Shown here in pieces: positions 3,200 to 44,779 of a stretch of DNA of 44,779 nucleotides (position 1 is the stretch's first letter; each line of letters begins with the position of its first letter). The stretch comes from an uncultured Prevotellaceae bacterium. Its GTDB lineage: Bacteria; Bacteroidota; Bacteroidia; Bacteroidales; Muribaculaceae. The DNA is taken from positions 1 through 44,779 of the forward strand of contig ONIY01000034.1 in assembly GCA_900318065.1 (NCBI GenBank), given 5' to 3'. The notes beneath the pieces were generated by a model. That model made no database searches, had not been told where the DNA came from, and saw nothing but the letters and a program-made list of their open reading frames with translations. The position numbers and the translations under genes are program-made.

Positions 3200-3340
3200 A
3201 AGAACTTCTCATCTGACAATTTGATGTGGGTTGAATATGATGACGAGAGGTTCAAATCTTACCAGTTAAAAAAGAAAGAAGACAAGCACAAGAGGAATGT
3301 AGAACTAAATCCAGGCAAAGAACTATATCATGGAATGTGA
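3200..3340 (+). pseudogene. Cut-off 3' part of the HNH gene
   Basis: It continues the frame of the preceding gene after its TGA: KNFSSDNLMWVEYDDERF then a lysine-rich tail to a TGA at 3338-3340. Together with the last residues before the stop (LHIDND) it gives a second H-x-D-x-D, N, NLMWVEY motif, so the stop falls inside an HNH-like repeat. A single base change would restore it. Confidence 0.6.
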
Positions 3341-3496: not shown

Positions 3497-5425
3497 ATGA
3501 AATTAATATTGGAAAAGATGATGAAAGAGATAAAAATTAAAGTACCAGCAGAGTATGAGTATTTGTCGATGTGGAAAGACTTTGAAACATTTTTGCCACC
3601 AGGTCACATTATCTTGAACAAAGAAATATGTGGCTGCGGTTGTACTGACTATTACTTGACCAATAACTCGCCAGTGATTCTTGTGAGTCCACGGCGACGG
3701 TTGATTGAGAGTAAGCTTAATGACCCGAGAACGGCCAATAACTTGTTCTACTTTGACAGGAGCGTGAAAGGCTCGACAGTGAATAATACGATTGACGAGC
3801 TAAGACGTTACCTGCAAGACTGTCAAGAAACACCATGGACAGATTCTAAGGTGCCGAAGATTATGGTTACATACGACTCTATGGGGGTTGTTATTGACAC
3901 TCTTCACGATTGGGGGCTTATGGACCGATTCACTATTGTCGTGGACGAGTTTACATGCATATTTACGGATGTCAAGCTGAAAGGGTCCACAGAGATCAAT
4001 CTATTGCACCGGCTAAATACGTTGCCAAACAGAATTGTCTATATCAGTGCGACTCCACTGAAGGATCTCTATCTGCAAATGCTGGACGAATTCGAGTATA
4101 TGCCCGTTGTGAACCTGGAGTGGCACCCGTCAAGAATCGAGAGAGCCAACATCTACTACTCAAAGATGACGAGTTGTGCCACCGCGTTTGAGAAAATCTA
4201 CAACGGTTATAAGAACGACGGTTATTTCAAGACCAAAATCGTAAACGGGGTGACATACTACTCTAAAGAGGGCGTGTTTTTCTTGAACAGCGTTCGGGAT
4301 ATCGTGAACATCATCAGGAAGTGCAGTCTCACTCCAAGAGAGACTTTGATTATCTGTGCTAACGAAGACAAGAACCGGGCCGCACTAAGGAAAGTGGGGT
4401 TTAGGGTGGGTTCAGTGCCAGGGAAGAATAACTACCAGCTCTTGAACAAGCCTTTCACATTCGTGACCAAGTGTTCATTTGAGGGGACTGACTTCTTCTC
4501 TGACAACTCCACCACGTTTATATTCTCCGACTGCAACAGGGAGAACATGACTCTTGACATATCGATTGACCTGCCGCAGATAGCAGGACGATGCAGGTCA
4601 AGAAATAACGTGTTCAGGAACGACATCTACTACTATTACAAAAATACAGATACAGAGCAGATTGATGTTAAGACGATGACACAGGAGGTCTTTAATAAGA
4701 AGCAGGATACCGAGTATTTGGTGAACACTCTATCGGGAGCAAATGTGGATGCGTTGAAGAACAAATTACTGGTGGCTCAAAAGGTCGAGAAATACAGCAA
4801 CGACTACCTGGATGTTGAAATTGCAGCAGACGGAAGCGCTGTGCCAGTCTGCAATAACCTCGCTTTTGTTGCCGATCTCAGAGCAATAGAGATAAAGTCA
4901 CAACAATACACTAACACGTACAAGATGGCCAGTTATATGAAGAGCGCCGGTTTCAACGCCTCTCATCAGCAGGCTCAAGTTGACCAGCAGTTCAACATGT
5001 TCATGACACAGTTTATGGCCGACAACAACTTTCAACGCAGAATGGAGCTATATGTCGATGCCGTTGAACATAATCCAGTATTGCTTGAGATGATTGAGAA
5101 CACATCGGCAATACCGCTGGAATACAAGCAATACTATCGTGAGCTGGGTGCAGAAAGGATAAGACGTTGCGCTTACATCGAGGCAAATCTGCAACGCGAG
5201 CTGGAAGACCTGTCAAAGTGGGGCGATGTTTCTCTGGACTTGGAAGAGGGAAGAACATACTCCAACGCTGAGATAAAGTCAATGATTCAGGCTGAGTATA
5301 ATCGCCTCGGAATGAACAAGACGGCTAAAGCGACAGATATTGAGATGTTTGCTGATGTTATACCTAAGAAATTTACAATTAACAATCAACGAACTAACGG
5401 ATATAAAATCATTAAAAACAAGTGA
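3497..5425 (+). CDS. SF2 helicase-like protein with degenerate motif I
   Basis: A 642-residue protein with the layout of a DEAD/DEAH-type helicase: a motif I position GCGCTDYY (residues 46-53), VVDEF as motif II (148-152), SATP as motif III (184-187) and QIAGRCRSR as motif VI in the second RecA-like lobe. Motif I has no lysine, so classical ATP hydrolysis is doubtful. A helical domain of about 230 residues follows. It belongs with the downstream primase-like gene (they are adjacent, end to start) and probably acts in element replication. Alternative starts are ATG 3518 or 3521, preceded by GGAAAAG; the first 7 residues are therefore unsure. Confidence 0.7.
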   Translation: MKLILEKMMKEIKIKVPAEYEYLSMWKDFETFLPPGHIILNKEICGCGCTDYYLTNNSPVILVSPRRRLIESKLNDPRTANNLFYFDRSVKGSTVNNTIDELRRYLQDCQETPWTDSKVPKIMVTYDSMGVVIDTLHDWGLMDRFTIVVDEFTCIFTDVKLKGSTEINLLHRLNTLPNRIVYISATPLKDLYLQMLDEFEYMPVVNLEWHPSRIERANIYYSKMTSCATAFEKIYNGYKNDGYFKTKIVNGVTYYSKEGVFFLNSVRDIVNIIRKCSLTPRETLIICANEDKNRAALRKVGFRVGSVPGKNNYQLLNKPFTFVTKCSFEGTDFFSDNSTTFIFSDCNRENMTLDISIDLPQIAGRCRSRNNVFRNDIYYYYKNTDTEQIDVKTMTQEVFNKKQDTEYLVNTLSGANVDALKNKLLVAQKVEKYSNDYLDVEIAADGSAVPVCNNLAFVADLRAIEIKSQQYTNTYKMASYMKSAGFNASHQQAQVDQQFNMFMTQFMADNNFQRRMELYVDAVEHNPVLLEMIENTSAIPLEYKQYYRELGAERIRRCAYIEANLQRELEDLSKWGDVSLDLEEGRTYSNAEIKSMIQAEYNRLGMNKTAKATDIEMFADVIPKKFTINNQRTNGYKIIKNK

Positions 5426-16817: not shown

Positions 16818-16838
16818 CCCCCTCTATCTTAGAGGGGG
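16818..16838. repeat. Palindromic repeat, inverse copy of the one at 32860
   Basis: Arms CCCCCTCTA (16818-16826) and TAGAGGGGG (16830-16838) with loop TCT. The 21 bases are the exact reverse complement of 32860-32880. It sits between clpA and aat. Confidence 0.7.
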
Positions 16839-16880
16839 AACTGATCTCCGAAAATTGGGGGAACTGATCTCCGAAAATTG
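16835..16880 (+). repeat. Two perfect 23-bp direct repeats before aat
   Basis: A 23-bp unit (GGGGAACTGATC... ending CGAAAATTG) occurs at 16835-16857 and again at 16858-16880 with no spacer. The second copy ends 24 nt before the aat ATG, so a change in copy number would alter the leader. Confidence 0.85.
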
Positions 16881-17785: not shown

Positions 17786-18563
17786 TTACTTAACATACTT
17801 TTTGCCGTTCTGGATGTAGATACCACTGTCGGGAACGCGGTTGAGCTCACGACCCTGGAGGTCGAAGATGCGGTTGTCGGCAGGAGTCTCATCAACAGCG
17901 ATAGTGCTGATTGCAGTTGGGATAACCTTGTCACCATCCTTCTTGAGCTCAAGATAGATAGGAGCGTCGGTTGTCCAAGCGCGGTTGCCCTCAGGACCAC
18001 CAGTGAACGAGAACGAGCATCCGGTAGGAGTAGCCTCCGACATGAGAGCGTAAACGCCATCGGCGCAACCGCTCATGTCAAGGGTAAATCTTGCGATGCC
18101 AGCAGGCTCCTCAAGTATAGGGAAGAAGCGGCATTCTTCAGTCGACAAGATCTCGATGATAACGAGCTTACCGTCCTTGATACTGCATTTCAGGTCGGCC
18201 TTCTTAAAGAGCTGTTGCTCGCGCTTGCTGTCGGTAACGCCTTCCCATCTTGCAAGGATAGTGTGGCCATAGCCAGAGAATCCCAGAGAATCCTACCCAG
18301 TCCTCATCTTCCTCGTCAGTGGCCCATTGCATGGTCTCGTCGGCAGTGAGAGTACCGTCCTCGGCAACTGCATAGCGGCCAACCTCCATGTTGAAACCAT
18401 TGAGGTTCAAGCTAGAGTTCACGAGCTGGAGCTCGATCATAACCTTGTTAGCATCCTGCTCTTCTGCCATAGGGGCAAACGAAAGAACAGAAGGACATGC
18501 TTCCTGAGCATAGGCAGCAAAACCCAGTGCTACAGCTGCAAAAAGAGTAAAAATTTTCTTCAT
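17786..18563 (-). pseudogene. Secreted protein with Por-like tail, copy A, frameshifted by a 10-bp duplication
   Basis: The N-terminal frame (from ATG 18563) gives a signal peptide (MKKIFTLFAAVALGFAAYA) and a beta-rich region (LVNSSLNLNGFNMEV). It runs out of frame at 18284-18293, where CCAGAGAATC is repeated in tandem. The remaining frame down to 17786 encodes GYGHTILARWEGV, ECRFFPILEEPAG and the tail IFDLQGRELNRVPDSGIY. With one repeat unit removed the gene is 256 codons with no stop. The tail resembles type IX secretion (Por) sorting domains; the body may be a cohesin-like beta sandwich, by inference. It is a tandem paralog of 19062-19813. Confidence 0.8.
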
Positions 18564-18680
18564 TTTAAATCGATTTTAATGTTAAAAATTTAATTATTAT
18601 TTATTAGTCACGTCATTCGATTGTATAGAAGCGACATCCATTTGAAGCATTTTGTTGACTGCTTCGCGTGGAAATCAATG

Positions 18681-18712
18681 CAAAATAAGTAAAAGTTTTT
18701 TTAACCACCAAA
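18681..18712 (-). promoter_or_regulatory. Promoter of secreted-protein copy A
   Basis: On the minus strand TTTG (18709-18712) and TATTTTG (18681-18687) are 21 nt apart, close to the TTTG / TAnnTTTG consensus. The leader of about 110 nt shares the word TTATTTATTAGTCACGTCA with copy B. Confidence 0.6.
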
Positions 18713-19010
18713 CTTTTTAATAAAAAAATATCAAAAAACACTTTTTGTTACATGTTTGTTACATGTGATATGTTTCATCTTGTGCGGGGTGATAATGTGG
18801 TCGCTCCTGGGGCAATATCTTTACTATCAGTCACAATGGGCACATTGTGGCGATTGAGCCATTACCCATTAGGGTAGTGGTGGCTGGCGGGTGGTGTCCA
18901 AGCAGTTTTCTTGCAAGGCGTGCCTTGTGGCTGCAATGTGGCGCAATTTGCACCTGTCGCAACTATAAAAAGAGACCACCCGAAAAAAATGAGCCCCCCC
19001 CTGAAAACGA
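18713..19010. other. Gap between the two paralogs, no gene seen
   Basis: The only structures are the hairpin CAAGGC/GCCTTG (18914-18927), a relative of the stronger one at 21002-21020, and homopolymer C and A tracts before the terminator. Open frames here are short and lack coding character. Confidence 0.6.
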
Positions 19011-19036
19011 GAAACCACCCGGTATCGGGTGGTTTC
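19011..19036. terminator. Palindromic terminator after secreted-protein copy B
   Basis: GAAACCACCCG (19011-19021) pairs perfectly with CGGGTGGTTTC (19026-19036). It is nearly the same as the palindrome after copy A, so the terminator was duplicated with the gene. Confidence 0.7.
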
Positions 19037-19061
19037 TTGTGTTTCAGCAATTAAGTTTTAA

Positions 19062-19813
19062 TTACTTAACATACTTTTTGCCGTTCTGGATGTAGATACC
19101 GCTCTCAGGAACACGGTTGAGCTCACGACCCTGGAGGTCGAAGATGCGGTTGTCGGCGGGTTGATCAGTGTTGATAGTGCTGATGCCAGTATCAACAGCT
19201 TTCTTGATGATGCCGTCAATCTTGTCGAGCTTAAGAACGATAGGAGCGTCGATAGTCCAAGCTACAGTACCCTCTACACCACCAGTGTAAGAGAACGAGC
19301 ATCCTTGAGGAGTAGCATCCGACATAAGGATGAGGGGCTCTCTTGTGTCACCGCAAGCCGAGAAGTCAACAGTGAATCTTGCGATAGTGTTGTCGTCTTC
19401 CTCAGTAAGGATTGGGAAGAAGCGGCAGTCGTTGGTCGACAAGAGCTCGATGATAACGAGGTTGCCAGTCTCTTCCTTAACATTGCATTTCAGGTCGGCC
19501 TTCTTAAAGAGCTGTTGCTCGCGCTTGCTGTCGGTAACGCCTTCCCATCTTGCAAGGATAGTGTGGCCATAGCCAGAGAATCCTCATCGTCGGCATCCTC
19601 TACCCAAACAGCGGCCTCAGGTTTTTGAACCTCCATGTTGAAGCCGTTGAGGTTCTCGCTTGAGTTAACGAGCTTGAGCAAGAATGTAGCATTGTTAGCG
19701 GGTTGCTCATCGGCAGCGGGCTCAAAATAGAGTCTTGATGGGCATGGTCCCTCCTGTGCAAAAGCGCAGAGGCCCAGTAATGCAGCTGCAAAAAGTGTAA
19801 AAACTTTCTTCAT
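19062..19813 (-). pseudogene. Secreted protein with Por-like tail, copy B, frameshifted by a 10-bp deletion
   Basis: A signal peptide (MKKVFTLFAAALLGLCAFA) from ATG 19813, then LVNSSENLNGFNMEV as in copy A. Near 19583 the sequence lacks 10 bases that copy A has (between two TCC words), so the frame is lost at the same codon. The downstream frame gives GYGHTILARWEGV, DCRFFPILTEEDDNT and the tail IFDLQGRELNRVPESGIY. Adding 10 bases gives 254 codons without a stop. Positions 19484-19583 are identical, base for base, to 18184-18283, although the rest has diverged clearly. Confidence 0.8.
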
Positions 19814-36316: not shown

Positions 36317-36542
36317 TCGACCACTCGACCACTCGAGCAGTCGATTTTTTTCTCCTTTCTCGAGCGGTCGAGCATTCGAGCATTCGAGCGGTCGATGTTT
36401 TTTTCTCATTTCTCGAGCGGTCGAGCAATCGAGCGGTCGATGTTTTCTCATTTCTCGAGCGGTCGAGCAATCGAGCAATCGAGCGGTCGATGTTTTTTGA
36501 TTACATCGAGTGTTCGAGCATTCGAGTGTTCGAGTGTTCGAT
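36317..36542. repeat. Octamer repeat array left of the four-helix gene
   Basis: Five blocks (36317, 36360, 36413, 36455, 36506) are built from three to four 8-bp words: TCGAGCGG, TCGAGCAT, TCGAGCAA, TCGAGTGT, TCGACCAC. Each ends in TCGATG or TCGAT and a T run, with CTCATTTC or CTCCTTTC between blocks. It falls just 3' of the gene at 36559. Not a CRISPR array, since the spacers are near-identical T-rich words. The rest of 36128-36316 shows no gene. Confidence 0.85.
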
Positions 36543-36558: not shown

Positions 36559-37305
36559 TCAATAGTTTCGTGTGCCTTGGCACTCGGGGTAATTGGAACA
36601 GCCCCAAAATTGGTGGCCTGCTTTTGCGCCGCGTTTGATTGTGCGCTTGATCATGGGTTTGCCACACAAGGGGCACTGTGGAGCATTTTGCTCAATTGCC
36701 TGGTGCGCTTGTGTAGCGATTCTTTCCTTGCTTAGTCCCTCGGTGAAGCCGCCGTCGTGCTTGAAATCCTCGAGTTGTCGCGAAATCATTTTTTGCAGCA
36801 TTTCTATATTCCTGTTTATGAGCTGCTTGATGGAATTGACCCGTATTGCTAGGTTTTCGTTTTCTACCCAAGGGGCAAACCGCTTTCGCTGTGCCTGAAT
36901 GTGAATCCACGCATCATGTTCTATATCGTTGCCATAATTAGGTCGCTCAAGTTGGAGGCTTTTCAGGGCACGGTAGTTCTCACTGTCCTTTGGCCAGGGC
37001 TCTATATTATAAGTGAGTGAGAATGCTAAAAAATCATTCAGCAGCTCGCTCAACGTGGCGCGTGCCACATCGGTGAGGCGCATTTCCGTTTCACGGCTGG
37101 TCTGTCGGCGCGAGCTGCCCTCGGCAATGTTGGCTGGTGCGCTTCGTGCTGCCATCACCATTTGGTCATAGAGGCGGCCACTGGGGTCGTTGTCTTTGTT
37201 GAGATAACGCTGGCAAAAGCTGACTGTTGCCTGGTAGATTATGTGTGACATCACCCACGCGTCAAGGTAGTAATAGCCCTTGATGGATTTTATTTCGATG
37301 GCCAT
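36559..37305 (-). CDS. Four-helix-bundle suffix protein with topoisomerase-type zinc ribbon
   Basis: 248 residues. Residues about 10-125 are the four-helix bundle of the 23S rRNA intervening-sequence family (YYLDAWVMSHIIYQATVSF, RSAPANIAEGSSRRQTSRET). A helical linker follows, and then the C-terminal zinc ribbon (about 208-248): CPLCGKPMIKRTIKRGAKAG and FWGCSNYPECQG, four Cys as in the topoisomerase I C-terminal fingers. The combination is known as a four-helix suffix protein. It may bind nucleic acid, but no function is proven. It is flanked on both sides by the same octamer repeats, in the same orientation. Confidence 0.85.
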   Translation of the reverse strand: MAIEIKSIKGYYYLDAWVMSHIIYQATVSFCQRYLNKDNDPSGRLYDQMVMAARSAPANIAEGSSRRQTSRETEMRLTDVARATLSELLNDFLAFSLTYNIEPWPKDSENYRALKSLQLERPNYGNDIEHDAWIHIQAQRKRFAPWVENENLAIRVNSIKQLINRNIEMLQKMISRQLEDFKHDGGFTEGLSKERIATQAHQAIEQNAPQCPLCGKPMIKRTIKRGAKAGHQFWGCSNYPECQGTRNY

Positions 37306-37342: not shown

Positions 37343-37515
37343 TCGAGCATTCGAGCATTCGAGCGGTCGATGTTTTTTTCTCATTTCTCGAGCGGTCGAG
37401 CATTCGAGCATTCGAGCGGTCGATGTTTTCTCATTTCTCGAGCGGTCGAGCGGTCGAGGTTTTTTCTTTTTCTTTTCTCGAGCGGTCGAGCATTCGAGCA
37501 TTCGAGCGGTCGAGG
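37343..37515. repeat. Octamer repeat array right of the four-helix gene
   Basis: Four blocks (37343, 37388, 37438, 37478) use the same words TCGAGCGG and TCGAGCAT, in the same orientation and with the same TTTCTCATTTC linkers as the left array. It lies upstream of the gene at 36559 and just 3' of the lipoprotein gene at 37542. Confidence 0.85.
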
Positions 37516-37541
37516 TTTTTGGGGGCTGGTGAGTGTTTTTA

Positions 37542-44551: not shown

Positions 44552-44684
44552 ATCACTATAATCGGTGCTTGTGCCTGCATAGTTAGTGGTTGTTCTCTCC
44601 GATACGTATGCTCCAATCGAAATGACATTAGCAATAGTAGCCTCATCGCTGTAGCAACCATCATCGGAACCTGCTGACCATGAG

Positions 44685-44743
44685 TAACATTAAGTTTGCA
44701 GCATCGTTGCGGACGAAGTCCGCCAAAAGCAAACAAAATGTTA
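44685..44743. repeat. 59-bp palindromic element at the broken 5' end of the subtilase
   Basis: The outer arms TAACATTAAGTTTGC (44685-44699) and GCAAACAAAATGTTA (44729-44743) match at 13 of 15 pairs. The centre is the hairpin GCGGAC-GAA-GTCCGC (44709-44723). The left arm supplies the in-frame TAA (44690-44692) that closes the subtilase frame upstream. Beyond it (44744-44779) no subtilase-like frame is seen. Confidence 0.65.
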
Positions 44744-44779
44744 ATATAATACGAAGAATGCCAGGTTGATTTCTTACTT

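Follow-up and report, generated by a model that had tools for sequence, protein, structure and literature searches.

Paired 10-bp frameshifts in two tandem paralogs of an uncultured Prevotellaceae draft genome very probably stem from contig joins at a 99-bp overlap

Two neighbouring paralogous genes of an uncultured Prevotellaceae bacterium, termed A and B, are both interrupted at the same point, A by a duplication and B by a loss of about 10 bp, and both frameshifts are very probably join errors of short-read assembly. Assembly error is strongly supported as the origin of the indels, because both breaks are found at the left edge of a shared repeat plus 99 bp, the length of the contig overlap of the draft, and because a like signature occurs at the relative locus L045. 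Paired frameshifts at repeat edges of draft genomes can mimic switches or pseudogenes, and the test for such errors needs the assembly alone, i.e., the contig-end overlap length and the distance of the break from the repeat edge.

The window, i.e., the whole stretch of 44,779 bp that was analysed, corresponds to the complete contig C31 of a 97-contig, 2.99-Mb draft with a completeness of 93.85%. Gene A (17786–18563) and its tandem paralog B (19062–19813) are located on the minus strand and are flanked by genes coding for leucyl/phenylalanyl-tRNA protein transferase and a pseudouridine synthase. The frame of A is interrupted at 18283–18292 and that of B after position 19582; outside these points both frames are open. 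Including start and stop codons, A and B measure 778 bp and 752 bp, which is +1 and –1 modulo 3 and consistent with indels of +10 and –10 bp. In both proteins the N-terminal stretch reads as a signal peptide, judged from the sequence, and both end in a tail of the type DLQGRELNRVP.SGIYIQNGKKYVK.

The longest exact repeat in the window consists of 18184–18283 and 19484–19583, which are identical over 100 bp and lie 1,300 bp apart. The original prediction had described this identity between differing flanks, and it was borne out with one refinement. The left edge of the repeat is genuine, the preceding base being mismatched between A and B. Counted from this edge, the first 99 bp extend to 18282 in A (18184–18282) and to 19582 in B (19484–19582), and at the next base the duplicate or the missing stretch begins. 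The relevant shared unit is hence 99 bp long. A 100th base matches because the duplicate in A and the sequence following the gap in B happen to start with the same letter, a by-product of both errors. The tandem duplication predicted just past the block in A was recovered as two perfect copies of the 10-bp unit CCAGAGAATC at 18273–18292, the putative site of the contig join. B does not contain the duplication. The shortage of 10 bp ascribed to it also holds: at the homologous point, the putative join at 19582/19583, about 10 bp are missing, whereas the proteins of close relatives have residues such as E-W-V at this place. The spacing of exactly 1,300 bp was considered as a meaningful feature and discarded as coincidence, the other five aligned blocks of A and B being spaced by 1,247–1,294 bp.

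At the right end of the contig, 44681–44779 lies inside a repeat common to the ends of contigs C3 and C45, and this match prompted a comparison of contig ends throughout the draft; the left end of the window showed no match elsewhere in the draft. A total of 82 ends were compared, comprising 60 starts (C1–C60), 20 ends (C1–C20), and the ends of C31 and C45. Five of them were left out as N-masked, namely the starts of C1, C28, C35 and C55 and the end of C1, the last judged to be masked because it matched masked starts across all 400 bases. Fifteen readable pairs of contig ends had an exact shared stretch of at least 60 bp. In nine of these it measured exactly 99 bp, which was also the maximum, and started from the very end of both contigs, indicating a 99-bp overlap between adjacent contigs in this draft; the other six pairs shared 93 bp (two), 88 bp (two), 69 bp (one) and 67 bp (one). 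Both breaks are thus situated exactly one contig-overlap length past the left edge of the repeat.

In a scan of 10 complete or partial contigs of the draft (786,927 bp), exact repeats of at least 99 bp were limited to the A/B pair, two contig-end pairs, and one interior pair of 99 bp in C32 and C43. The latter is not crossed by any open reading frame of 100 codons; its C32 copy has a 5-bp duplication at the right edge, a weak case in T-rich sequence. The edges of repeats were further surveyed in 77 relative loci and 10 stretches of the draft, which together contained 31 within-contig direct exact repeats of at least 60 bp. Right-edge duplications of at least 7 bp occurred at two of the 31, the A/B repeat (10 bp) and a repeat of L045 (7 and 4 bp); the other right-edge duplications were 4 bp long in two pairs and 5 bp long in one, and none of the 31 repeats had a left-edge duplication of at least 4 bp. 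The background rate, determined at 784,927 positions, was 1.3% for duplications of at least 4 bp, 0.72% for at least 5 bp, 0.37% for at least 7 bp, and 0.12% for at least 10 bp. In L045, from isolate RUG378, tandem paralogs have tails with an identical stretch of exactly 99 bp (3204–3302 and 4461–4559), and the duplications of 7 and 4 bp directly follow the two copies. This signature resembles that of the A/B joins, although a search with one contig end of the L045 draft did not reveal an exact end match of 99 bp. No edge duplication of at least 5 bp accompanied the repeats of 101 bp (L063), 179 bp (L040) and 205 bp (L046), from drafts whose overlap lengths may differ from 99 bp, indicating that the join error is not universal.

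According to the proposed course of events, A and B would truly have at least 99 bp of exact sequence in common, probably because gene conversion took place between these tandem paralogs. With contig overlaps of 99 bp, this stretch would form a knot in the assembly graph: both left-hand contigs would terminate 99 bp into it, and the right-hand contigs would start within it. Each left-hand contig would then have been joined to its right-hand contig at a wrong overlap length, suggested by read-pair distance estimates or introduced by a gap-closing step, such that 10 bp were retained twice in A and 10 bp were lost in B. Both genes would presumably be intact in the organism. Further points against this model are that it does not account for the size of exactly 10 bp in both errors, and that the joining step left no direct mark in the form of N at the joins. 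The equal and opposite sizes may be due to chance, given the values of +7 and +4 in L045.

A comparable class of errors has been reported. Chen et al. 2020 (PMC7111523) describe scaffold ends sharing an overlap that is tied to the largest k-mer size, as is the case for the shared overlap of the contig ends here, and wrong joins that lead to duplicate sequence or unsupported consensus and to incorrect protein-coding genes, likewise similar to the present case. The description, however, is of Ns between the overlapping ends, whereas the joins in A and B are free of Ns, and in one of the two, sequence was lost rather than duplicated. The sampled contigs of our draft contain no N. An attempt to put a name on the assembler was dropped; passages of PMC5830445 name IDBA-UD in the reference list only.

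The identical block is set between much less similar flanks. In a DNA alignment, the two genes match at 230 of 281 ungapped positions (82%) on its left and at 172 of 213 (81%) on its right, and in a protein-guided codon alignment at 189 of 267 (71%) and 153 of 228 (67%), respectively, which argues against a block of identity arising by chance. The same codons are used by both genes at 32 of 32 comparable sites in the block (99 of 99 bp), at 40 of 53 and 25 of 43 on its two sides, and at 31 of 34 in the tail. Such a short, fully identical tract between diverged flanks is like that known from gene conversion of tandem paralogs, and judging from these sequences the block is probably the result of a recent conversion. 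Scores against nine relatives, taken without a tree, were highest for L038_7779 and L051 with the flanks of B, and for L042 and L038_3719 with the block, suggesting that the direction of transfer was probably into B. The block itself is likely real rather than an assembly product, because a knot in the graph requires reads that carry the individual left flanks of A and B into the 99 bp. Among 20 tandem pairs from other genomes, 15 showed higher similarity in the same region than in either adjoining region, and the excess reached at least ten points in seven of them, as in L039 (96% versus 80% and 68%) and L040 (90% versus 62% and 62%); the five pairs without the excess were two of L038, one of L046, and two of L050. 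Protein constraint may explain part of this higher likeness. Same-codon rates rise along with the likeness of the region in L039 and L040, and not clearly so in L048. The biology left over once the indels are set aside would be local homogenisation in tandem secreted paralogs, which is ordinary.

Relatives of A and B were sought in 77 loci obtained by protein search. Most of these come from metagenome drafts that bear the titles Muribaculaceae, Bacteroidales, Prevotellaceae or Prevotella, with names that often refer to ruminants. Of these loci, 24 (L036–L059) yielded 41 related open frames, often as tandem copies. The N and C halves of A were matched within one frame in 40 of the 41; the remaining one, from L052, is open as well, its N half being without a match to the N half of A. 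None of the 41 frames is broken at the A/B site. The genome under study contains six further matches, several of them confined to the tail and all free of internal stops. A search of 101 genomes of the genus for one suited to a same-species comparison gave, outside the own genome, only pieces of 66–90% identity.

Of the three readings originally offered, assembly error has strong support as the source of the indels, and gene conversion has support for the block and not for the paired indels. A real conversion with faulty junctions, in which the upstream tract edge was sealed by end-joining at short homologies with gain or loss of 10 bp, would agree with the full identity of the block between less similar flanks and with the separate affinities of flanks and block among the nine relatives, and each junction can be written, by eye, with 2–3 bp of homology. 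However, one conversion event alters the recipient alone, so that a further mishap at this very position would be needed for A; moreover, the breaks sit at the repeat edge plus the 99-bp contig overlap of the draft, and the same geometry recurs in the second draft, that of L045, in a different part of the gene. We consider this course very unlikely. Another possibility is that some members of the population truly have the paired indels, in which case out-of-register reciprocal exchange between tandem cohesin-like paralogs would have produced opposite 10-bp shifts. If true, the exchange would turn two secreted proteins on or off in a coupled manner; we regard it as highly improbable.

The third original reading, a reversible switch in which A and B exchange the site and the 10-bp difference in register toggles their frames, found no support. 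In its favour, recombination is conceivable between tandem paralogs that have a long stretch of identity. Against it, none of the 41 related frames, which stem from other species, is broken or in an alternative state, A and B are off simultaneously, which is not obviously expected of switching between them, and the position of the break is explained by the assembler overlap. We regard the switch as extremely improbable. Paralog families do lose members, and independent decay of two unneeded genes would be in line with this; yet the rest of both A and B is open, and two unrelated hits at one point, both at the repeat edge plus 99 bp, would be a very unlikely coincidence, making decay an extremely improbable origin of the two breaks.

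A and B are members of a family of tandem, putatively secreted proteins. A structure model of an intact relative (263 amino acids), built with 29 sequences, reached a mean pLDDT of 88.4. Among its ten PDB matches with E values ≤0.001, nine titles name cohesin (one of them CohA2), and the remaining match is to a scaffoldin complex. The model was aligned in part only, with TM values by query length of 0.34–0.41 for the ten best hits. Its best matches are thus to cohesin modules, which are known from cellulosome scaffoldins and clostridial glycoside hydrolases, suggesting a cohesin-like predicted fold for the tandem secreted proteins. In contrast, searches of Pfam and NCBIfam with 29 members identified no fitting family and no match to a cohesin profile. 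DUF6035 was touched by one of the 29 members (E = 0.01), and DUF3868 by the N-terminal half of A, with an E value of 0.0024 that stays below the cut-off of that family. Tandem families of small proteins with the predicted cohesin-like fold are also present in other drafts of uncultured Bacteroidales, among them L038, L039, L046, and L050.

Several further repeats were observed in the window. The leucyl/phenylalanyl-tRNA transferase gene has a perfect 23-bp tandem duplication at its start (16834–16880). The intergenic segment 20884–20949 comprises 4.7 perfect copies of the 14-bp unit AGTTATCAGTAGTC, and 60 bp of this array occur again, in inverted orientation, in contig C29 at position 105601. 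Two arrays at 36325–36541 and 37343–37519 are composed of short units such as TCGAGCAT and TCGAGCGG, with spacers such as GTTTTCTCATTTC. They flank a minus-strand gene (36559–37305) coding for a protein of 248 amino acids, which matches the four-helix-bundle family TIGR02436, shows a weak match to the 23S rRNA IVP family, and also matches a topoisomerase-type zinc ribbon.
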